From Flavobacterium limnophilum (lineage in GTDB: Bacteria > Bacteroidota > Bacteroidia > Flavobacteriales > Flavobacteriaceae), in NCBI RefSeq assembly GCF_027111315.2, contig NZ_CP114289.2, positions 2,232,001 through 2,296,000 of the forward strand: 64,000 nt of DNA, written 5' to 3'. Made by a program: the position numbers and the translations under genes. Below, piece after piece: positions 23,707 to 55,642 of this stretch. The notes below the pieces were generated by a model. The model made no database searches. It saw nothing but the letters and a program-made list of their open reading frames with translations, and had not been told where the DNA came from. Positions within the stretch are counted from its first letter, which is position 1; the number at the start of each line of letters is the position of its first letter.

Positions 23707-24039
23707 GTTAAAAACCAAGTATTTATGAATTGCAAATTTAAGGCTTTATGCTTGGAGGAAAAAAAAATCAGGAGGCAAACAGTGAGAAATAAATCAAGTT
23801 TATTATTAAATTAACACCCTAATAGTACTTTATCCCTACTCTACCTGATTATGAAAAGCGGATTAACATCATTTAGGCAGGTACTTTTTTAGGGTACCAC
23901 AGCCTAGGCTTATCTATGGCTTTGACTAGGCTTTGACTAGGCTTTGATTAATACAGGCATAACCCTTTGGGGGCAATTCTTTTTACCTTCTATTTCAAAA
24001 ATATAATAATTACCCCCAACGAGTATCATAGTACCTTGT
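23707..24039. other. Intergenic region with 11-bp tandem repeats and an inverted repeat
   Basis: No gene was seen in these 333 bp. GGCTTTGACTA occurs three times in tandem at 23918-23950 (the last copy has one change). TTGGGGG near 23968 and CCCCCAA near 24014 form an inverted pair that could make a stem of the phoH transcript end. Confidence 0.5.
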
Positions 24040-44735: not shown

Positions 44736-47700
44736 TCAATAAGTTCTGTATTTCTTAAAATTTTCTGCTTGATCGAAGATTTCTTTATACACTTCGTCTC
44801 TATCTACAGGAGGATACCCACTATCAGCCAAAAGAATGATGAGATCCACTTTAAGTTCGGCCTTGATGTCGTCACGTTTACTCCAATCGGTATATTTTGC
44901 TTTGTCATCCACTACCCCTTTTACTTTTTGTGCCAAAAGAATAAGTTTATCCTCGGGATATTCAAAATCGTATTTTACTGCTAAAGCTTTCAGGATGTCA
45001 TAAAAAGCTTTTTCCTCAAAGTCAATGCCCAGGTCTTTAAAGGAATCTTTTTCTTTTTTTAAGGCATAGTACAAATCAATAATTTCATCTGTGAAATCCT
45101 CCAAAACTTCGCTTCGCAATACATCACTTTCTTTTCGTTCGTTGTATTTGTCAACTATGAATTGCAAACGTTTAGAAAAATCAATTCCAGTTATCTTGTT
45201 AATTTTCTTTACATCGTCAATAGCTTTGGCCAAAAGCTTTTGTAAAAGCTTGATTTTGGTATTGGGAAGTTTGATTTTATCAATCTTGGCCATATAATCC
45301 TCCGAGAAAATATCTACTTCGGTTTGATTGTCTTCTCCCAGTTTGAAAATTTCCTCCACTCCATCACTTTCAATGGCTTCCTGCAGCATTTGGCGCACTT
45401 TATTGTTCATTTGCGCAGTATCCGGGGCAACACCTTTGGTGAGTTTGAATACTATGGAGCGTACAGCCAAATAGAAATGAATTTCATCTCGTTCGGTTTC
45501 GCTAAACGCACCACTACCGGAACAAATATCGTAAGCCGATTTTAATCGTTTTACGATGTACATAAATCTCTTTTCCAGCTCTTGGGTAAGCTGGACAAAC
45601 TCTGCTGCCTGATTCAAAGTCTGTAATTGTGCTATTGGCGAACCCTTGAAATAATTTGATTTATCGAATTTATGGAACAATTTGCCCAGTAAATCCAATT
45701 GGTCTTTAACAACCACTATGGATTGCTCTATATCTTCTATGTTCTGGGCATCGGCACTGCTGTATTGCGCCAAAGCCAAATTCATTTGTTTTTTGATTCC
45801 AATATAATCAACTATCAAGCCTTTTTCTTTACCTTCAAACTTTCGGTTTACCCTTGAAATGGTTTGGATTAGGTTGTGTCTTTGTATCGGTTTGTCAATG
45901 TACATCGTGTCCAGGAACGGCACGTCAAAACCAGTCAGCCACATATCGACGACAATGGCAACTTTGAAATTGGATTTTTCATTTTTAAACTGGCGGTCAA
46001 ACTCCTTGCGGTCTTCTTTGGTTCCTAGCAGATTGTATAGGACTTCGGGGTCGTCTTTTCCTCTGGTCATCACCATTTTGATGCGCTCCATTGGTTTGAT
46101 TTCCTTTTGTTCTTTTTCAGAAAGCACGACACCTTCTTCTGCAATTTTCACTTCGCCCCATTCCGGACGGAGTTCCAAAATATTTTTATACAATTCATGA
46201 GCGATCGGACGGCTACTGCAGACAAACATCGCTTTTCCTTTTACCGTAGCACCTTCTGCAATTCTGTTTTCATAATGCTTCACGAAATCTTCGGCCACGG
46301 TTTTCAATCGTGTGGGATCGCCAATGATGGCGTTCATTTGCGCCATCGCTTTTTTGCTTTCCTCCACCTGATGCTCGTTACTGCCTTCCTCGGCACAACG
46401 ATTATAATATTCCTCAATTTCCTGAAGCTTGCTGTTATTAAGCAGCACTTTGGCAGCACGACCTTCATAAACAATGCGTACCGTAATTTCATCAATCACG
46501 GATTCCTTCATCGTATAGGTATCGACGATATCGCCAAATACATCAATCGTGGCATCAATGGGTGTTCCCGTGAAACCTACATAAGTGGCATTAGGCAGGG
46601 AATCGTGTAAATATTTGGCAAAGCCGAAAGTTTTGGACACCCCTTTATCGGTAACTTTTATTTTCTGGTCCAAATTGGTTTGACTGCGGTGTGCCTCGTC
46701 GGATATACAAATTACATTATTTCGTTTGGTCAATAATCGGGTATCTTCCGTAAACTTGTGAATGGTCGTCAGGAATACCCCTCCGCTGTTTCTGCCTTGC
46801 AATAGTTCCCTTAGTTGACTTCTGCTTTCAACGCTGATAATCATTTCATCACCGATAAATCCTTTGGCATTGGTAAATTGACCCGACAATTGGTCATCCA
46901 AATCAGTTCTGTCCGTGATTAATACGATGGTAGGACTTCCAAAATAAGTGCTTCGCATCAACAGACGGCTCAAATACAACATCGTGTAGCTTTTTCCGCA
47001 ACCTGTGGTGCCAAAGTAGGTACCGCCTTTTCCATCACCTTCAGGACGTTGATGTATTTTTATATTTTCAAAAAGTTTAATCGCGGCATAGTATTGAGGA
47101 TAACGGCAAACTATCTTGTCATTTTTCTTGGAACTGTCCGGTAGGTAAATAAAATTCTGGATGATGTTTCTTAACCTGTTTCGGTTGAACATTCCCTGAA
47201 TGAGCGTAAACATGGCGTCTATTCCATCCACTTCATTGACCATGCCTTCAATTTTACGCCAGGCATAAAAGAATTCGTAGGACGAAAAAAAGGAACCAGC
47301 TTTAGTATTGACTCCATCGCTTATGACACAAAAAGCATTGTATTTGAAGAGTTCGGGAATATCTCTTTTGTATCTTGTGGTCAATTGAACAAAAGCATCA
47401 TGAATGGATGTGTTTTCCTGAATGGCAGTTTTAAATTCAAAAACCACCAAAGGCAATCCGTTGATGTACAAAATTAAATCGGGAATACGCATCTCATACC
47501 CCTTAATCGCCAATTGATTGACAATTCTATAACTGTTGTTATCCTGCTCGGAATAATCAATCAGCTGAATGTAAACATCTTTCTGGTTGCGGTCTTCGCG
47601 TTTCAACAGGAAACCGTCGCTTACCATTTTCATGATGGTTTTGTTGGTTTCATACAAATCAGAAGCCGGCAGACGATCCAAATCCCTGAGGATCGAATCA

Positions 47701-47927
47701 ATTTCGTTTTCCGTGATATTTTCAGTCTTGTATTGGCTGCGCAGGTAATTTTTAAAATCGGCAACTAGCAGCACCTTTTCACTTACCACATGACCATAAA
47801 CCATTGGAGGTTCGCTCAAACCATTGAATTCTGCTTTGCGCACATCACCGCCGGCAAGATGCGTCATTCGCTCTTCTTGCAGCAAGAATATAAATGCCTT
47901 TTCTAATTGTGATTCGGTGAATTTCAT
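44736..47927 (-). CDS. hsdR: Type I restriction enzyme R subunit
   Basis: The start MKFTESQLEKAF at 47927 gives a four-base ATGA overlap with the upstream stop, a sign of translational coupling. The 1063-residue protein has a PD-(D/E)XK nuclease near the N-terminus (IPDLILYINGLPLVVFEFKTA), then SF2 motor motifs: Walker A TTGCGKSYT, DEAH box ISDEAHRSQ, GFTGTP, and a later TVSR-type motif QTISRVNRK. The C-terminal helical region contacts the methylase. It cuts DNA after ATP-driven translocation. It is the last gene of the defence operon. Confidence 0.94.
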   Translation of the reverse strand: MKFTESQLEKAFIFLLQEERMTHLAGGDVRKAEFNGLSEPPMVYGHVVSEKVLLVADFKNYLRSQYKTENITENEIDSILRDLDRLPASDLYETNKTIMKMVSDGFLLKREDRNQKDVYIQLIDYSEQDNNSYRIVNQLAIKGYEMRIPDLILYINGLPLVVFEFKTAIQENTSIHDAFVQLTTRYKRDIPELFKYNAFCVISDGVNTKAGSFFSSYEFFYAWRKIEGMVNEVDGIDAMFTLIQGMFNRNRLRNIIQNFIYLPDSSKKNDKIVCRYPQYYAAIKLFENIKIHQRPEGDGKGGTYFGTTGCGKSYTMLYLSRLLMRSTYFGSPTIVLITDRTDLDDQLSGQFTNAKGFIGDEMIISVESRSQLRELLQGRNSGGVFLTTIHKFTEDTRLLTKRNNVICISDEAHRSQTNLDQKIKVTDKGVSKTFGFAKYLHDSLPNATYVGFTGTPIDATIDVFGDIVDTYTMKESVIDEITVRIVYEGRAAKVLLNNSKLQEIEEYYNRCAEEGSNEHQVEESKKAMAQMNAIIGDPTRLKTVAEDFVKHYENRIAEGATVKGKAMFVCSSRPIAHELYKNILELRPEWGEVKIAEEGVVLSEKEQKEIKPMERIKMVMTRGKDDPEVLYNLLGTKEDRKEFDRQFKNEKSNFKVAIVVDMWLTGFDVPFLDTMYIDKPIQRHNLIQTISRVNRKFEGKEKGLIVDYIGIKKQMNLALAQYSSADAQNIEDIEQSIVVVKDQLDLLGKLFHKFDKSNYFKGSPIAQLQTLNQAAEFVQLTQELEKRFMYIVKRLKSAYDICSGSGAFSETERDEIHFYLAVRSIVFKLTKGVAPDTAQMNNKVRQMLQEAIESDGVEEIFKLGEDNQTEVDIFSEDYMAKIDKIKLPNTKIKLLQKLLAKAIDDVKKINKITGIDFSKRLQFIVDKYNERKESDVLRSEVLEDFTDEIIDLYYALKKEKDSFKDLGIDFEEKAFYDILKALAVKYDFEYPEDKLILLAQKVKGVVDDKAKYTDWSKRDDIKAELKVDLIILLADSGYPPVDRDEVYKEIFDQAENFKKYRTY

Positions 47928-49438
47928 TTTTGTTCTATTATTTTCCAATAACCACTTTTTGTTGAACCTTCTCTTTCAATCACTTCATCATCCTTAAATT
48001 TAGCGATAACTTTTTCTATTGTACTTGCCGCTAGTTCAAGAATAACAGCAATATCTTTAGACCTAATAGATGGCTCAAGCATGAAGAGCATAAGAATATC
48101 AATTGCATTTCTTCCGTATTTCTTCCGTATTTCTTCCGTATTTATTCCGAACTTCTTCCGTATTTCTTCCGTAAATACCCCGTAATTACCCCGTAAAAAA
48201 GCAATATTCTTTTCCTTGCCTAGAGCAATTCGGTCTGACAACAACCCAAATTCCCTTCGAACTTGTTCTATAGACTTCTCTAAATCATCAACTTGACCAC
48301 CTGCCACAGCATTATCTTGGTCGTTTAAAGACGAAGTTTCTTTTTTAAATACAGTAACCAAAATACCTCCATCCAAGTTCGTGATTTCCGGTTCAGGTAA
48401 TCCGGCTTCTTTACAGGCTTCATATATTTTCAAGGTACCGCGACCCCAAGAATCAATATAACCCGCTTTGAAACAAACATCGGCTATCAGCGGATTTCTC
48501 GGGCGTGAAATATGGTGATGTTTTAGGCTTTCCAAGTCCATTCCTTCAGGCAGTAAACCTTCGTTCCAGATATTTAATTTATCGTCATACACGCGCATTT
48601 GAACCATTGAACCCATATAGGAACGGTGCACCAAGGCGTTCAACAGCATCTCTCGTATGGCAGCCACGGGATACTCCTCTTTTTCGATACGCAGCAAACC
48701 TTCGAAATCGATGGGCTTGATAAAAAACTTGTAGTTTAACTGATTGGGAACTGTTTTCAGTAATTCAATGATATTGCCTTCTTCGACTTCCTGAAAACGC
48801 AGGTCGGCATCATTGATGCCAAAACGGCCTATTTTTACTTTGATGTTGGGATAAAAACGATTCGGGTCTTTACCAAACAAGATAATGGCGGCTCTTTTGA
48901 GTTTGCCTTGATCGAGCAAACGAATTTTCTCCAAAAGCTCTACCGTAGAAAGCTCTCCAATATCATGGGGCATGCGTCCGCTTTTTAAGGCATCTTTAAC
49001 AAATGTCTTTATACTATTGTCATCGATGTCATCCAAACTGGCACCTTCTTCGATGACATCATCCCATGTTTTACCCGCTTTTTTGAGTAAAAACTCGTTG
49101 AGGGTATTTCCGGTCATTTCCATTTTGGAACTGCCGGAACGGTAATAGTAACGCCCACGGAGCGACACGGGAACCGAATACGGATTGACCCTAATTTCGA
49201 TATATTTTTTACCCGCTTCATCATGCAAATTGACATCACAGATGATGCCCAAATTTTCACGGATTTTATTGGGCAGGGATTCCATTAGGGCTTTGTGATG
49301 CTCCAAATGTGTTACCGCACCATCATCATCCTTTCCGATGTAGATAATTCCTCCAACTGCATTGGCAAAACCGCATATCCATTTCAGATAGTCGTTATGC
49401 CAGCTTCGTTTCCATTCTATGTTTTGAGATTCGCTCAT
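47924..49438 (-). CDS. AlbA_2/Schlafen-like ATP-binding protein with an 11-bp repeat tract
   Basis: This 504-residue protein has an N-terminal AlbA_2 (divergent AAA_4/Schlafen-like) domain: NIEWKRSWHNDYLKWICGFANAVGG and IYIGKDDDG. A HATPase-like domain follows with AIREMLLNALVHRSYMG and DSWGRGTLKI. Next is a tract reading TEEIRKKFG and TEEIRKKYG in 11-residue period, and a terminal winged helix. The tract comes from eight 11-bp units, so adding or losing one unit would shift the frame and remove the end. Such proteins are found within type I restriction loci with an unclear role, perhaps regulation or anti-phage activity. Confidence 0.85.
   Translation of the reverse strand: MSESQNIEWKRSWHNDYLKWICGFANAVGGIIYIGKDDDGAVTHLEHHKALMESLPNKIRENLGIICDVNLHDEAGKKYIEIRVNPYSVPVSLRGRYYYRSGSSKMEMTGNTLNEFLLKKAGKTWDDVIEEGASLDDIDDNSIKTFVKDALKSGRMPHDIGELSTVELLEKIRLLDQGKLKRAAIILFGKDPNRFYPNIKVKIGRFGINDADLRFQEVEEGNIIELLKTVPNQLNYKFFIKPIDFEGLLRIEKEEYPVAAIREMLLNALVHRSYMGSMVQMRVYDDKLNIWNEGLLPEGMDLESLKHHHISRPRNPLIADVCFKAGYIDSWGRGTLKIYEACKEAGLPEPEITNLDGGILVTVFKKETSSLNDQDNAVAGGQVDDLEKSIEQVRREFGLLSDRIALGKEKNIAFLRGNYGVFTEEIRKKFGINTEEIRKKYGRNAIDILMLFMLEPSIRSKDIAVILELAASTIEKVIAKFKDDEVIEREGSTKSGYWKIIEQK
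48106..48193. repeat. Eight 11-bp tandem repeats inside the AlbA-type gene
   Basis: Units of consensus TATTTCTTCCG (plus strand) end at 48116, 48127, 48138, 48149, 48160, 48171, 48182 and 48193. Three are identical and the rest differ by one to four bases. Eleven is not a multiple of three, so copy-number slippage would switch the reading frame. Confidence 0.8.
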
Positions 49439-49441
49439 AGC

Positions 49442-49897
49442 TTATAAAACTATTTTTATTTTTTCCTCTAAAGGAACTTCTCTGTTTAAACTCGTCAAAA
49501 TTCCTTTTGAAAGAGTATAAAAAGTTTCTTTATAATGTTTTAAATTTCTTTTTTGAATATAATGTTCTACAATGAAACTACCTGGTCCATTATACAATTC
49601 TTCTAGTTCTCCGTTCTCAAGTATATTTATGCTCAAGAAATAGTCGGGTATTTTATCTTCTCCAAAAGGGAAATAACTATAGTTCTTAAACGAAGCTTTT
49701 ATTTGTACTTTCCTTCCTGTCGTTTTTTCAAAACCATCATAAATAGCAGTATTTTCATTATACAGTTCCAAACCATATTTCTCAGCTGCCAAAACTTCAC
49801 CAATATCACCTACTAGGCGACCATCCAATGAAAAACTTCTTTGGTATTGGCTTCTCAACTTTTGAGTGATTTCGAGTAGCTGTTTGATTTCTTGCAT
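49442..49897 (-). CDS. Putative PD-(D/E)XK nuclease-like protein (DUF6998-type)
   Basis: This 151-residue protein contains a candidate nuclease core: E34 in GDIGEVLAAEKYGLEL, D54 in AIYDGFEKTTG and QIK at residues 65-67, the E-D-(D/E/Q)xK order of restriction-like nucleases. No DNA-binding motif is visible. It lies 3 bp upstream of the AlbA-type gene and is very AT-rich. I infer a nuclease or accessory role in the restriction locus from this order alone. Confidence 0.55.
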   Translation of the reverse strand: MQEIKQLLEITQKLRSQYQRSFSLDGRLVGDIGEVLAAEKYGLELYNENTAIYDGFEKTTGRKVQIKASFKNYSYFPFGEDKIPDYFLSINILENGELEELYNGPGSFIVEHYIQKRNLKHYKETFYTLSKGILTSLNREVPLEEKIKIVL

Positions 49898-49915
49898 TTT
49901 ATCTTTGACGCTATT

Positions 49916-50572
49916 TTATGCTCGGACAACTTCCCAAGCTATTAATCGAGTTTCCAAATTTATTTTGTCAGCGATAATTTCTTCATTGAAAATCAGTTTA
50001 GCATTAAAGCTCAGATTTAATTCTTGCATCTTATTGATAAAACGTCTATCAAAATCAGATGTTTTCTTCAAGCATAATTCGTTTACTAAATCTAAATTAA
50101 TCTGATAATCTGAAGGGAATGGACCTAAACTTTTAGATTGCAATTGATGTCTTAACATTTTACTATCTGCAACACAAATAAAATAGGCATTTCGTTTAGT
50201 AAAATTGGATTCCAATCCCAATCTTATCATATCGTTTAAAGTCTTAATTAACCTGTTTGTTTTGTTTATAGTCCCTTCTTCATTACTATTTTGCCTAAAC
50301 AAACCGAATTCTGCACAAATATTTAATTTATCTATCACAATATCCATTTTTGGTTTTTGCTTTCTTAATGTATTTGGGCTCACTTGTCTTGGAATATAGG
50401 CTTGACTACTAATTGCACTTTCTAAAACAATTTCATAATTTTTTAGATTTTTAACTTCAGTTGAAGCAATGAAAAAGTCATACCTAACAGAATCTTCTCC
50501 AATTTCTAATAAGGGAATGTTATGGCATCGTTGAGTAAATAGTTTCTTATAAGTTTTAAATATTTTATCCAT
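49916..50572 (-). CDS. Unrecognised protein in the restriction locus
   Basis: This 218-residue protein has no signal peptide or membrane helix. The central part MDIVIDKLNICAEFGLFRQNSN has acidic residues around a short beta segment, and C-terminal helices follow. I do not recognise a family. A restriction-type fold is conceivable, but no clear catalytic triad was seen. It is 18 bp upstream of the previous gene. The pair lies between two copies of the AlbA start. Confidence 0.5.
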   Translation of the reverse strand: MDKIFKTYKKLFTQRCHNIPLLEIGEDSVRYDFFIASTEVKNLKNYEIVLESAISSQAYIPRQVSPNTLRKQKPKMDIVIDKLNICAEFGLFRQNSNEEGTINKTNRLIKTLNDMIRLGLESNFTKRNAYFICVADSKMLRHQLQSKSLGPFPSDYQINLDLVNELCLKKTSDFDRRFINKMQELNLSFNAKLIFNEEIIADKINLETRLIAWEVVRA

Positions 50573-50708
50573 AATTTCTTTTGTATGTACTTTGAATCTT
50601 AACTATTTATTAAAAAAAATTTGATTGTATTATTTACTTTGCTCTTTTATAACGGGAAGAGTTATTTGATTTCTTAAATTATAAAAAAAAATCTATGTAA
50701 TTAATTTT

Positions 50709-50762
50709 TTAAAATCCTGATATCCAACTTTGTTTCCATTCTATGTTTTGAGATTTGCTCAT
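50709..50762 (-). pseudogene. Remnant of the AlbA-type gene start
   Basis: The frame MSKSQNIEWKQSWISGF then stops. Its first 39 bases differ from the start of the AlbA gene at 49438 at only three positions. Beyond that the two sequences diverge. It marks the old position of that gene or a recombination joint. The surrounding gap 50573-50778 is very AT-rich with nothing else visible. Confidence 0.75.
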
Positions 50763-50778
50763 TGTATTATTCTATAAT

Positions 50779-52020
50779 TTATTCTCTTTCTAATATCGAA
50801 TTTTCAATATTATCATAGGTAATAGTTTCTCGGTCAAACAATACAAATTCTTTACGAGGAAATAATGCTTGTAATTTTTCATTATCTTTTTCAAATCTAT
50901 TTTCGGAAGAAGCAAAAAATATCTTGTTCACATTACTATTATTTATACAATCAAAAACATGTTTATCATTATCGTCTAGTGAGCTACCTATAATAACCAT
51001 ACTTCCTCTCAAATTTGAAAGTTCAGTAAAATTTCTTTTTAAATATAAACTATCATTAATTTCTTCAATTTTATTCTCATTTGTAAAAACACAAATCAAA
51101 TCTTTAGATTCATTATCCAAAATCCCATCGATTATTTCATATAAAGCCTTATCACTTTCTTTTGTTATTTTATAAATACTTTTTTTGTCTTTATATAAAT
51201 GAAAAGCGCCATGGAGAAAAAATAAATTTCTATTTATCTCAGGATTATATTTGAATAAAGATAGTGGTTCTGAAAAAGTAAAACCATCGTTAATTTCTAA
51301 TTGTATTGAATTTGAGCGGAGTTCCTCATATAAAACCTCTAGACATTTTTTATAATTTTTAATATTTTTGGATTTTAATACATCACTCAATTGTTTTTCA
51401 AAATCGGTTTTAGTCAATTTACTAAAATCCTTTTCTAATATTTGTATTCCTTTACTATTAAAAATATCTTTCTTGTATGTAAAATAAATTTCTTTAATAG
51501 TTTTATACGTTTCAGAAGTTTGAATGTTTAAATCAATTTCTATAAATGGAATTGAATTGTTGAAAACAAGTAAGTTTTCATTTTTTTTATACTTCAAAAG
51601 CAGTAAGTATAAAAAAGGATCATAATTAAGTGAAAAATAAGTGGTGAAATTCTTAAAAAGCAATCCTATTCCGTTATTTTTTTCTTCATAAATATTTTTA
51701 ATTGATTCTTTAACAATTGCAAAACACGCTTTAATAAAATCTTTTTTAACTTGATTGTTAATGAATGAATCTAAAAAATCTTTATCTGGATTATTGATGT
51801 TGTTTTTCAACCTACCAATTATCCCCTCAATATCATAATTATTATCTTCAATATTTAAACTATTGTATATGGGATTTAGTTCTTTCATAACATCAAAAAT
51901 ATTCTTATATCCAGTATTTACACCCAAAGAATAATTAAATCCATTACCTAATAATAGATGATTTTCTGTATTTTCAATTTCAGATAACATTTCCGAATAT
52001 TTCACTAAACTATTACTCAT
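50779..52020 (-). CDS. DUF4917-type (SIR2-like) protein
   Basis: This 413-residue protein has a Rossmann-type start NHLLLGNGFNYSLG, the central FTTYFSLNYDPFLYLLLL, FFLHGAFHLYKDK and VIIGSSLDDNDKHVFDCI, which together match DUF4917/SIR2-like proteins. SIR2-like defence proteins deplete NAD during phage infection, but the catalytic His/Asn of sirtuins cannot be confirmed here. It is 18 bp after the Abi_C-type gene in the same operon and is strikingly AT-rich. Confidence 0.65.
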   Translation of the reverse strand: MSNSLVKYSEMLSEIENTENHLLLGNGFNYSLGVNTGYKNIFDVMKELNPIYNSLNIEDNNYDIEGIIGRLKNNINNPDKDFLDSFINNQVKKDFIKACFAIVKESIKNIYEEKNNGIGLLFKNFTTYFSLNYDPFLYLLLLKYKKNENLLVFNNSIPFIEIDLNIQTSETYKTIKEIYFTYKKDIFNSKGIQILEKDFSKLTKTDFEKQLSDVLKSKNIKNYKKCLEVLYEELRSNSIQLEINDGFTFSEPLSLFKYNPEINRNLFFLHGAFHLYKDKKSIYKITKESDKALYEIIDGILDNESKDLICVFTNENKIEEINDSLYLKRNFTELSNLRGSMVIIGSSLDDNDKHVFDCINNSNVNKIFFASSENRFEKDNEKLQALFPRKEFVLFDRETITYDNIENSILERE

Positions 52021-52038
52021 GATTCTTTTTTTTTAGCT

Positions 52039-52809
52039 TCAATTGTTAGAAAGTTTTTCATCTAAATTCTTCTTTTCAGTATAAGTTCTAAATAAAAACA
52101 TGGTCATTGAACCAGCCAAATTGACAGCAAGCTCACTATGTCTTAAACTTGGTTTTACATTGGTTTTGCTTTTTCCGTGAGCATCACCTAATTTATTTCG
52201 TAAAGCTCCCAAACCGGTTACAACACTTGTTACTCCACCAAGTATTTGTTTAAATATACCTTCATTATGTAGTTCAGGAGCTAGATTTAAGGATTTCGCC
52301 ACCTCTTTATATAATACGGGAAGATCGGCACTTTCGTTATAGGGAATAGCTTGGTCGTCAAGAATGTGTTTTAAAACACTTTCGATTAAAGTTCTGGCAG
52401 ATGTAATGGCTCCTTCGGGATCACTTTCTTTCCTTTCCAATGCTTTTTCCCATAAAGAATGAAGATGAACTTCGTTAAAAACAATTGTTTCATTTAAAGG
52501 CGATGTTTTTCCGCTTTCAAGATGAGAAAGTAAAATATTGAATTCACCCCAAATAAACTCTCTTCTCTCCTGATAGGTACTGTAACGCGCTTTTATAAAT
52601 GTCCAAAACTGATCGATGGTACGATTAGCGTCAATCCATTTAGGCAGAAGATGAGAAATAGATTTGTTATCAACCAATTTTTTTCTGCTTTTAGTATAGG
52701 CATCTTTATCAAATCCATCACCAGTAGCACGCATAATTAAATGGTCTTGAAAGTATTGAACCAATTCAAAATCATTCAATAAATCTATATGTTTTAATTC
52801 ATCATCCAT
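52039..52809 (-). CDS. Abortive-infection (Abi_C/HEPN-like) protein
   Basis: This 256-residue protein has a C-terminal domain of the abortive-infection type: SARTLIESVLKHILDD, VVTGLGALRNKLGDAHGKS and PSLRHSELAVNLAGSMTMFL. R204 and H211 in RNKLGDAH fit the Rx4-6H active site of HEPN ribonucleases. The N-terminal part is an uncharacterised helical domain. It ends between hsdS and the SIR2-like gene, so it may act as a backup that kills or stalls the cell if restriction fails. Confidence 0.7.
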   Translation of the reverse strand: MDDELKHIDLLNDFELVQYFQDHLIMRATGDGFDKDAYTKSRKKLVDNKSISHLLPKWIDANRTIDQFWTFIKARYSTYQERREFIWGEFNILLSHLESGKTSPLNETIVFNEVHLHSLWEKALERKESDPEGAITSARTLIESVLKHILDDQAIPYNESADLPVLYKEVAKSLNLAPELHNEGIFKQILGGVTSVVTGLGALRNKLGDAHGKSKTNVKPSLRHSELAVNLAGSMTMFLFRTYTEKKNLDEKLSNN

Positions 52810-54087
52810 TTAAACCAATCCCTTTTCAGTTTCAACTTTTGTCATTTTGGCTAACAATAAAACATTCAATTCTTCAAGTTTATCAATCATTTCTAGACTT
52901 TTAAAATTGTCTATTGCATTAGACATTATTGAAAATTTCATTAATATGTTTTCATGTGGAATTAATATTTTTAAATCTTTTATTTGACCTGGGGAAATAT
53001 TTGCTTGATTTGCACTTCCTGTGGATCCATTCAACAGTTCAGTCTGAATTTCTTTGGAGGAGACATATTGATAAACAAACTCTTTATAATAAGAATGGAC
53101 TGGAGATAGTTTGCTTACTCTTTGGTTTAACAGCGATGGAAAATTAAAGTAATATTTACCTACTTGACCAACTGCTGAATTTAATTGATTTGCTCCTGAT
53201 CCCGTCATTGATATAAGGATATCGCCCTTTGTAATAATAATTCTATTAAGGGTTTTAGGTAGATTACCCATAAAATATTGAGTATCTTCTTGGATATATA
53301 CATATGGAGCTTTTATGTTTTTTATTTTTAAAATTGGATATTTTCCAACATCATAAAATTCATCGCTCTTAAATGCATATCCATTAATAGTTTCAATCAA
53401 ACTCCCTAAGTTGTTGTAATTCCACCCCTCAGGAATTTCCTTCTCCAATTCTTCACACCAGACCATTTTTCCACAATTACTTTTATAAGGCTTCCCTTTT
53501 TCATCAGGAAACTCAAAATCCACAAACCATTGTTTGTAAAGCGTTTGGGCAGTTTCTTCGAGTTTAGAAATAAGTTGATTATTGAGGGTAATACGGTTTC
53601 GAATGACTTTGTATTCACGGACTATTTCTAGTTGTTTTTCGGGAGACGGAATAGGTAATTTCATACCACAAAAATCTTCCCATTCCAAACTTCCTCTCAC
53701 ACCACCAACAGCATGAAAACAAGCTTCTCTATCAAATTCTGAACGAGTAAACCACATCATTAAATATTCAGGCAAAAGTTCGTCCGTATCTATTATTTCG
53801 AAAATTGGATAAGCTTGTGATATGATAGCCGGTTCATCTTCTGTATATAACGCAACAGGCATTTTCCTGTCACGTCTTACCTGCATAGTGCTACAAGCAA
53901 ATTGACTTTTGCGTATGATTTTGTAATTCTCCATATCTGTTCCAATGATATTGGCAACAGATTTTATAAACTGCTTGGAAATACTAAGTCCTAACAATGC
54001 TTTTACTTTTAATCCCTTGTTCCGTTCGTCAACCAGACGAATGTAATTACCTATCGGCTTATAATTCGATTGCATAGCCCAATTCAT
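52810..54087 (-). CDS. hsdS: Type I restriction specificity subunit
   Basis: This 425-residue protein has two target-recognition domains. The first ends near PIPSPEKQLEIVREY and the second in the LIPHENILMKF region, separated by coiled-coil-like spacers (ITLNNQLISKLEETAQTLYKQWF). It reads a bipartite DNA site for the HsdM/HsdR complex. The first ATG overlaps the hsdM end by 29 bp. An inner ATG at 54075 is also plausible. Confidence 0.9.
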   Translation of the reverse strand: MNWAMQSNYKPIGNYIRLVDERNKGLKVKALLGLSISKQFIKSVANIIGTDMENYKIIRKSQFACSTMQVRRDRKMPVALYTEDEPAIISQAYPIFEIIDTDELLPEYLMMWFTRSEFDREACFHAVGGVRGSLEWEDFCGMKLPIPSPEKQLEIVREYKVIRNRITLNNQLISKLEETAQTLYKQWFVDFEFPDEKGKPYKSNCGKMVWCEELEKEIPEGWNYNNLGSLIETINGYAFKSDEFYDVGKYPILKIKNIKAPYVYIQEDTQYFMGNLPKTLNRIIITKGDILISMTGSGANQLNSAVGQVGKYYFNFPSLLNQRVSKLSPVHSYYKEFVYQYVSSKEIQTELLNGSTGSANQANISPGQIKDLKILIPHENILMKFSIMSNAIDNFKSLEMIDKLEELNVLLLAKMTKVETEKGLV

Positions 54088-55642
54088 TAAATACGTTTAA
54101 CAAATCGTTTTTAGACTTCGTTTCGGCTCTCAAGAGTTCTGAAAACTCGGTTTGTAAAGCGATCATCTTATCATCAAAATCAATATTCTCATCGCGATTT
54201 ACAAAAGTGATGTATTTGCTGGGTACCAAAGAAAAATCTTTAGCAACTATCGTTTCAAATGAAGCCGAATAACAAAATTCGGGAACATCTTTGTATTGAC
54301 TTAAATTAGCTTGCCAATTATGGTAAGCTCCAGTTACATCTTTAATATTTTTCTCTGAAAACTGAATAAACTTTTTCTCAAATGGAATCCCCACTTCTCG
54401 CAAATCCATAAAAAGAATTTCATTTTGTCTGTCACGGTAGTTTCGGGTTTCATCCGGCAAGTGAACTGTTCTGGCTTTTTTGTTTTTGTTCAGAATCCAG
54501 AGCGTGACGCTGATATTGGTGGTATAAAACATATTTTGTGGCAAAATCACAATGGCTTCCACCAAATCGTTTTCAATCAGTTTTCTTCGAATTTTGTATT
54601 CTTCGCCACCGCCAGAAAGGGCACCATTGGCCAAGATAAAACCGGCTACGCCGTTTTCGGACAATTTACTTACCATATTCAGAATCCAGGCATAGTTGGC
54701 ATTGCTGGTTGGCGGAATATCATAGCCTCTCCAGCGAGGATCATCTACCAGTTCATCACTGGCTCTCCAGTCTTTTTGGTTAAAAGGAGGGTTGGCCATT
54801 ATATAATCGGCTTTCAAATCGGGGTGTTGGTCACGACCAAAAGTGTCGGCTGCCACATCACCCAAATTCGCCGAAATACCGCGAATGGCTAGGTTCATTT
54901 TGGCCAGTTTATAAGTAGTGGCCGTATATTCCTGTCCGTAAATGGAAATTTCTTTTTTGTTCCCGTGGTGGTTTTCAATAAACTTGATGGATTGCACAAA
55001 CATGCCACCAGAACCGCAAGCGGGGTCATAGATAACCCCTTTGTAAGGTTCTATCATTTCGGCGATGAGGTTTACGATACTTTTTGGAGTGTAGAATTCA
55101 CCTTTCCCTTTTCCTTCGGCCAAGGCAAACTTGCTCAGAAAATATTCATACACGCGACCCACAATATCAGTCTGCTTGTCCTTGATCGTGTCAATATTGT
55201 TGATGGTATCCAACAAAGCCGCCAATTTGCTCACATCCATATTCAGGCGAGAGAAATAATTGTCCGGCAAAGCGCCTTTCAGGGCAGGATTGTTCTTTTC
55301 TATGGTATGCAAAGCGGTGTCTATCTTCAGGGCAATATCGCTTTGCTTGGAATTTTCGATAATAAACGACCAACGGGATTCCTCCGGCAAAAAGAAAATG
55401 TTCGACATATTGTAGAATTCCTTCATCTCAAGATATTTCTCTTTTCCATCAGTTATCAATTCCTTACGTCGTTCTTCAAACTTGTCACTGGCAAATTTCA
55501 GGAAAATCAACCCCAGTACTACGTGCTTGTATTCTGATGATTCGACGGTTCCTCTTAGTTTGTTGGCGGAGTCCCAAAGGGTTTCTTCGATGCTTTTTTC
55601 TTTTTTGGGTTTAGCTTGTTTTGGGGTAACTTGTTTGGACAT
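54059..55642 (-). CDS. hsdM: Type I restriction DNA methyltransferase
   Basis: This 527-residue protein has the SAM-binding DPACGSGGMF and the catalytic motif IV ANPPFNQKDW of N6-adenine methylases, and the N-terminal HsdM_N domain (EETLWDSANKLRGTVESSEYKHVVLGLIFLKF, given here in part). It modifies host sites and forms M2S and R2M2S complexes. It is the first gene of the defence operon, with the other members following in order on the minus strand. Confidence 0.95.
   Translation of the reverse strand: MSKQVTPKQAKPKKEKSIEETLWDSANKLRGTVESSEYKHVVLGLIFLKFASDKFEERRKELITDGKEKYLEMKEFYNMSNIFFLPEESRWSFIIENSKQSDIALKIDTALHTIEKNNPALKGALPDNYFSRLNMDVSKLAALLDTINNIDTIKDKQTDIVGRVYEYFLSKFALAEGKGKGEFYTPKSIVNLIAEMIEPYKGVIYDPACGSGGMFVQSIKFIENHHGNKKEISIYGQEYTATTYKLAKMNLAIRGISANLGDVAADTFGRDQHPDLKADYIMANPPFNQKDWRASDELVDDPRWRGYDIPPTSNANYAWILNMVSKLSENGVAGFILANGALSGGGEEYKIRRKLIENDLVEAIVILPQNMFYTTNISVTLWILNKNKKARTVHLPDETRNYRDRQNEILFMDLREVGIPFEKKFIQFSEKNIKDVTGAYHNWQANLSQYKDVPEFCYSASFETIVAKDFSLVPSKYITFVNRDENIDFDDKMIALQTEFSELLRAETKSKNDLLNVFNELGYAIEL

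Follow-up and report, generated by a model that had tools for sequence, protein, structure and literature searches.

A constant-length 11-bp coding repeat at the edge of an exchangeable winged helix in a type I restriction cluster of Flavobacterium limnophilum

Introduction

A non-triplet repeat within a coding region is usually read as a sign of phase variation, and in phase-variable mod genes the numbers of repeat units vary. In the HsdS proteins of EcoR124I and EcoR124II, the spacer contains a TAEL repeat encoded by an in-frame 12-bp unit, and the presence of two or three copies of this unit alters DNA specificity (PMC3874165). The mod gene of M. mycoides subsp. capri carries a non-triplet AG repeat that leads to early termination and is described as phase variable (PMC3498834), and so is modA of Neisseria and Haemophilus, with simple sequence repeats (PMC3311624). 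Campylobacter RloA, considered here as a possible relative, is described as an ATPase (PMC9490421).

The 11-bp tandem repeat described here lies in a 64,000-nucleotide stretch of the F. limnophilum genome (contig NZ_CP114289.2; hereafter the window), within the reading frame of a gene for an AlbA/ATPase protein. It resembles the repeat of EcoR124I/II HsdS in that a protein of a type I restriction system has a short tandem repeat in its helical spacer, and the number of units would set the geometry between two domains. However, it is not a 12-bp HsdS unit of variable copy number: the unit is 11 bp long, the gene is a different, regulator-like one, and the number is constant here; the spacers of relatives can, however, contain 12-bp units. 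With the phase-variable mod genes, the locus shares a coding-region repeat in a restriction-modification locus, but in-frame variation was found in 0 of 48 proteins, two proteins are truncated, and the repeat lies in a gene other than mod or hsdS. Proteins that combine SLFN_AlbA_2 and HATPase_c_4 domains, such as DIP2311 (3lmm), are similar in both domains by Pfam and by the match to 3lmm, whereas the 11-bp repeat of the linker, with its 11-residue period, sets the present protein apart from most of the other such relatives read. Nothing on the tract was found among the matches listed for the open-licence literature on 11-bp repeats, AlbA, COG2865, rloA, Flavobacterium phase variation and repeats between genes.

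The reading that we favor, with a probability of roughly 0.6, is that the tract is a coding repeat of fixed length that connects the ATPase with a DNA-reading head open to exchange and is sometimes broken by slippage.

Gene, Protein and Gene Cluster

The repeat-bearing gene (47924..49438, minus strand) is intact and encodes a protein of 504 residues. An SLFN_AlbA_2 domain at residues 3-108 (46.8 bits; cut-off 25.3) is followed by an HATPase_c_4 domain at residues 276-362 (75.8 bits; cut-off 26), a combination that we take to correspond to COG2865. The closest solved relative is 3lmm, found by Foldseek (E 5.9e-19, at a TM-score of only 0.40) and by a profile match to residues 244-358 (E 7.6e-06). 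An AlphaFold2 model made with 56 sequences (mean pLDDT 73.4, pTM 0.55) places short helices at residues 390-397, 400-406, 408-417, 419-430 and 434-441, ahead of the winged helix, with pLDDT values of 68 to 85 in the blocks from 391 to 450 and of 27 to 45 in the preceding spacer. The repeat region is therefore predicted, at middling model confidence, to be folded protein, which would account for three units not being freely added.

The gene belongs to a type I restriction-modification cluster in which hsdM (54059..55642), hsdS (52810..54087) and hsdR (44736..47927) all lie on the minus strand. In the direction of transcription, hsdM and hsdS are followed by an Abi_C/AbiJ-like gene (52039..52809), a DUF4917 gene assigned to PDC-S21 by PADLOC (50779..52020), a gene for 218 residues with no Pfam or PADLOC family at E 0.001 (49916..50572), a DUF6998 gene identified by Pfam (49442..49897), the repeat gene in seventh place and hsdR in eighth. 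These eight genes of one direction would form a single operon; the four between hsdS and the repeat gene occupy 49442-52809. As the original prediction held, the TGA stop codon of the repeat gene and the ATG of hsdR overlap as ATGA (47927-47925), and this arrangement makes translational coupling to hsdR possible. Bacteroidota rely little on Shine-Dalgarno sites, and an A-rich stretch before the ATG might allow hsdR to start independently as well.

The Repeat Tract

The tract consists of eight 11-bp units at 48109..48196 (minus strand) and codes for LRGNYGVFTEE IRKKFGINTEE IRKKYGRN. It is the same array that had been predicted, in a different phase, at 48106-48193, and its translation bears out the predicted protein period of 11 residues per three units. 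Upstream of it, 48197..48370 (minus strand) codes for a spacer, from GGILV to FGLLSDR, and the first part of the linker, and downstream, 47927..48108 (minus strand) codes for the C-terminal winged-helix module, which in the window is of the type here called a and is exchanged among relatives. On the coding strand, from 48196 to 48109, the units are TTACGGGGTAA, TTACGGGGTAT, TTACGGAAGAA, ATACGGAAGAA and GTTCGGAATAA, followed by three further copies of ATACGGAAGAA. The core is TACGGGGTA in the first two units and TACGGAAGAA in the next six, one of which is changed to TTCGGAATAA.

Tandem Repeats Finder reports a period of 11 at 48107-48173, with 6.1 copies, 89% matches and a score of 113, and again at 48169-48197. 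Four of the eight units are identical, and perfect 11-bp periodicity extends over 37 bp at most. All five matches in the window to a 20-base probe of two units (up to three mismatches) fall inside the tract, and the probe gave no match in 100 shuffles. Similarly, the six exact matches in the whole genome to a degenerate three-unit pattern, searched with up to two mismatches, are all in the tract; the three matches elsewhere, each with two mismatches, are meaningless because the reversed control pattern gave 14+13 matches in the same genome. Within the tract, CGG is used for three of four arginine codons, compared with 8 of 287 outside it (16 open reading frames of the window), and this skew indicates that the sequence obeys the DNA unit and not the usual codon choice.

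Another 11-bp repeat, GGCTTTGACTA in 2.7 perfect copies, occurs between genes at 23918-23947. A reversed control pattern with GGCWT cores has 4+4 matches in the same genome and may mark more repeats of that kind.

Slippage and the Number of Units

The original prediction was that the tract could act as an on/off switch. In its full form, this idea is a contingency locus at which slippage would toggle the winged helix and, by translational coupling, hsdR at a high rate. The geometry of the gene agrees with this proposal, since the unit is non-triplet and the predicted truncation ahead of the winged helix is reproduced in silico: with one unit more the frame stops at 48031 and with one unit less at 48099, both short of the winged helix, and with three units more or less the reading frame is retained.

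Two relatives also speak for unit loss. From residue 16 as far as the tract, P0034 does not differ from P0006; its last residues are RKKCN, exactly the end predicted for the window protein after loss of one unit. Against its use as an example of switching, another frameshift is present close to the start of P0034, and because of this shifted start it is possibly a pseudogene or the product of a poor assembly. In P0025 the front is intact and the C-terminal end is IICFRANFH, which, when the proteins are compared by eye, fits a type b winged helix read in another frame after one-unit loss. Frameshifted alleles thus seem to exist, as judged from these sequences, and make up two of the 50 anchor-bearing proteins when P0054, P0103 and P0117 are set aside.

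The length of the tract among relatives argues against a switch. In the protein search, 7999 candidates were scored, 5362 passed, and among the best 120 of these 5362 the anchor FGLLSDR was found, unchanged or slightly altered, in 53. The distance from FGLLSDR to the recognition helix is exactly 75 residues in every one of the 48 full-length proteins that could be measured (that of the window and 47 relatives), a set that includes many near-copies, e.g., P0012, P0014-P0017 and P0019-P0021. A contingency switch should leave variants that differ by three units, yet no such gain or loss was seen in any of the 48. P0054, P0103 and P0117 (57-60% identity), which bear the anchor, fall outside the measuring pattern; a count by eye makes P0054 about seven residues longer. 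Two further searches queried with tract regions yielded 24 and 31 proteins, all of them already among the 120, and no truncated variant besides P0025 and P0034. The constancy could reflect a selection of working copies, as minority alleles are hidden in assemblies and clustered proteins.

Just upstream, the spacer from GGILV to FGLLSDR ranges from 29 to 44 residues (47 proteins, P0034 left out), often in steps of four residues, as expected from 12-bp units. Flavobacterium sp. ZT3R18 (L011) and F. laiguense LB2P30 (L012), which are 98-100% identical in aligned blocks over the repeat gene, differ by one 12-bp unit in the spacer, whereas their eight 11-bp units are identical. The region is therefore open to length change, but the tract itself shows no in-frame change. 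Taken with the shortness of the longest perfect stretch, these findings leave the switch weakly supported: the frame ends and the two truncations stand in its favor, the fixed length in all 48 proteins stands against it, and we regard it as doubtful.

The units themselves have changed at constant number. When unit types are assigned from the residues (with x for unclear ones) or, for DNA copies, from the DNA, the boundary between GGGTA and AAGAA units comes after two to five units in the proteins that have both types, and the total is the same. Loss followed by regain, which would pass through out-of-frame stages and which the switch would also produce, or in-register recombination would both give such moving boundaries. 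Between the window and L011, the tract segment has one synonymous and six amino-acid changes in 27 codons, compared with 85 and 20 in the 320 codons of the front part (Fisher p 0.0006), and all five pairs tested, which share sequences and are not independent, point in the same direction (p 0.045 or less; 2e-6 to 0.044 in the four others). The winged helix of window/L011 likewise has few synonymous changes (two, compared with four amino-acid changes), so that for this pair a recent exchange that took in the complete 3′ part may be explanation enough.

Exchange of the Winged Helix

Behind the linker, four types of winged helix are found in 47 proteins (a in 10, b in 15, c in 14 and d in 8, set by short motifs, with the truncated P0025 typed by hand), and front parts that are nearly identical precede different types. 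When the types are mapped on a front-part tree, they change 19 times, compared with a possible minimum of three and a mean of 25.5 for shuffled labels; none of 200 shuffles is as low as 19, and the types are therefore partly inherited with the front part. Taken singly, type c is clustered (0 of 500 shuffles as low), and types a, b and d, for which 99, 320 and 179 of 500 shuffles are as low, respectively, do not exceed the shuffled labels. This tree is a quick and only partly resolved one, in which nine of 41 inner branches are starred and 23 are open, and the starred branches alone force six changes for b, three for c, five for a and four for d.

DNA comparisons locate the seam. Identity between the window and L013 is 88% in the block leading to the tract and 83% in the block that contains it; it then falls to 45%, 50% and 63% in the winged-helix blocks, the drop beginning at the end of the tract, and returns to 87% in the block at the start of hsdR and 72-97% thereafter. 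The winged-helix blocks of the window and L011, in comparison, are 98%, 95% and 95% identical. L013 and L014, which have type c in common, are about as alike in this module (77-92%) as in their front parts (68-92%). These comparisons show that the winged-helix module has been exchanged between alleles, with the tract at its front edge. In P0039 and P0041 the difference starts upstream of the tract.

From its position, the shared repeat probably promotes this exchange. A stronger form of this idea is that the tract serves as a recombination adaptor with a frame check: near-identical units would let alleles of an hsdR-linked regulator swap their winged-helix heads, and, the unit being non-triplet, only in-register crossovers that restore eight units would work. 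We put this forward tentatively, as an unlikely reading.

Occurrence in Other Genomes

Relatives at E 1e-40 or better were found in 20 of 398 sampled genomes of the same genus, and protein tails reveal the 11-bp tract in four of these 20: the genome itself, G534, G304 and G273 (the tails in L036, L041 and L042 are unreadable). G534 shares its match length and protein tail with L012, and G304 with L011. In the family, 7 of 249 genomes have a relative at E 1e-60, with the tract in F. limnophilum only, and 150 further relatives gave no new copy among those read. Five different DNA copies are known, including L013, each with eight units in frame; in L014, the same copy as that of G273, the first unit is degenerate. 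In most of the other relatives examined at the tail, the linker contains 12-bp repeats or no repeat at all. In an Aliarcobacter relative, from another phylum, the gene likewise lies directly before hsdR (L085, 1486-2829), and a 12-bp repeat in its linker encodes KTRV.

Viral contigs contained no match to the tract pattern or the protein. The matching plasmid and phage records (115 and 25, respectively) are each below 60% identity, and the tract was absent from all five loci read, four of plasmids and one of a phage; in L084, a repeat is present in two and a half copies, spaced by one step of 11 bp and one of 12 bp. The tract pattern occurs in 3 of 395 genomes of the order, including the genome itself, where the reversed control gave none among the matches listed, and in 8 of 395 genomes of the class, again including the genome itself, compared with 4 of 395 for the control. 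Among the loci read for these matches, only L061 resembles this gene by sequence, and the others seem intergenic. L061, a distant relative as judged by sequence, has similar 11-bp coding units (DDFGKISEEIRKKFGRSSEEIRKKYG) near position 1500, and its frame ends soon after in RTVEKK. Further genomes of the class carry arrays of 11-bp units with TACGG cores at a number of sites, most of which lack a long reading frame (L048, L051, L053, L055, L058, L059 and L060, all in G783; L062 and L071 in G1012; L063; L067).

Possible Passive or DNA-Level Origins of the Tract

The apparently intergenic 11-bp arrays in other class genomes indicate that such repeats arise readily, and the tract might be a passive relic of unit duplication that has no role and whose number is kept solely because shifts break the gene. 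If length were irrelevant, however, changes of three units would be permissible, and none occurs in the 48 proteins, which makes a relic improbable.

Stand-alone relatives without linker repeats carry direct repeats, 11, 9 and 11 bp apart, just behind the stop codon. In a set of 26 hand-picked loci, and with a spacing fixed after some had been looked at, 13 of 16 stand-alone loci beat all 200 shuffles, compared with 0 of 10 loci with linker repeats. Twelve of the passing loci are L004, L006, L007, L008, L009, L017, L018, L019, L021, L023, L024 and L035; the thirteenth, L038, looks accidental, and L010, L015 and L037 fail. The cores differ by locus (TTGCACC, TTGCATC, TTGGCC and others), and the repeats are possibly operators of the winged helix. 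An operator role of the 11-bp array in the cluster was considered and rejected on its absence from the two intergenic stretches examined.

These post-stop repeats and the few synonymous changes in the tract would suit an array kept as DNA, with one binding site per helical turn for the winged helix of the protein itself or another regulator, but this is very unlikely, because much the same units precede winged helices of different types, such an array is absent from two intergenic stretches of the cluster, no other site in the genome rises above the control for the tract pattern, and eight steps of exactly 11 bp do not stay on a single face of the helix.

A Model for the Fixed-Length Linker

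In the fixed-length linker that we favor, the eight 11-bp units, read in three frames, would form a row of short predicted helices that link the AlbA/ATPase core to the winged helix. Slippage, gene conversion or recombination would account for the turnover of the units, and selection would keep their number because only arrays of eight units preserve both the reading frame and a linker of the right length. An occasional loss of one unit would yield a protein that stops ahead of the winged helix, as one relative matches exactly and another fits; such a loss may also lower the translation of hsdR.

Relatives with as little as 58% identity have the same coded repeat length, even as the domain that follows is exchanged. 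This combination calls for caution with automatic calls of phase variation and makes a regulator-like gene of restriction clusters a case in which modular exchange can be tested.
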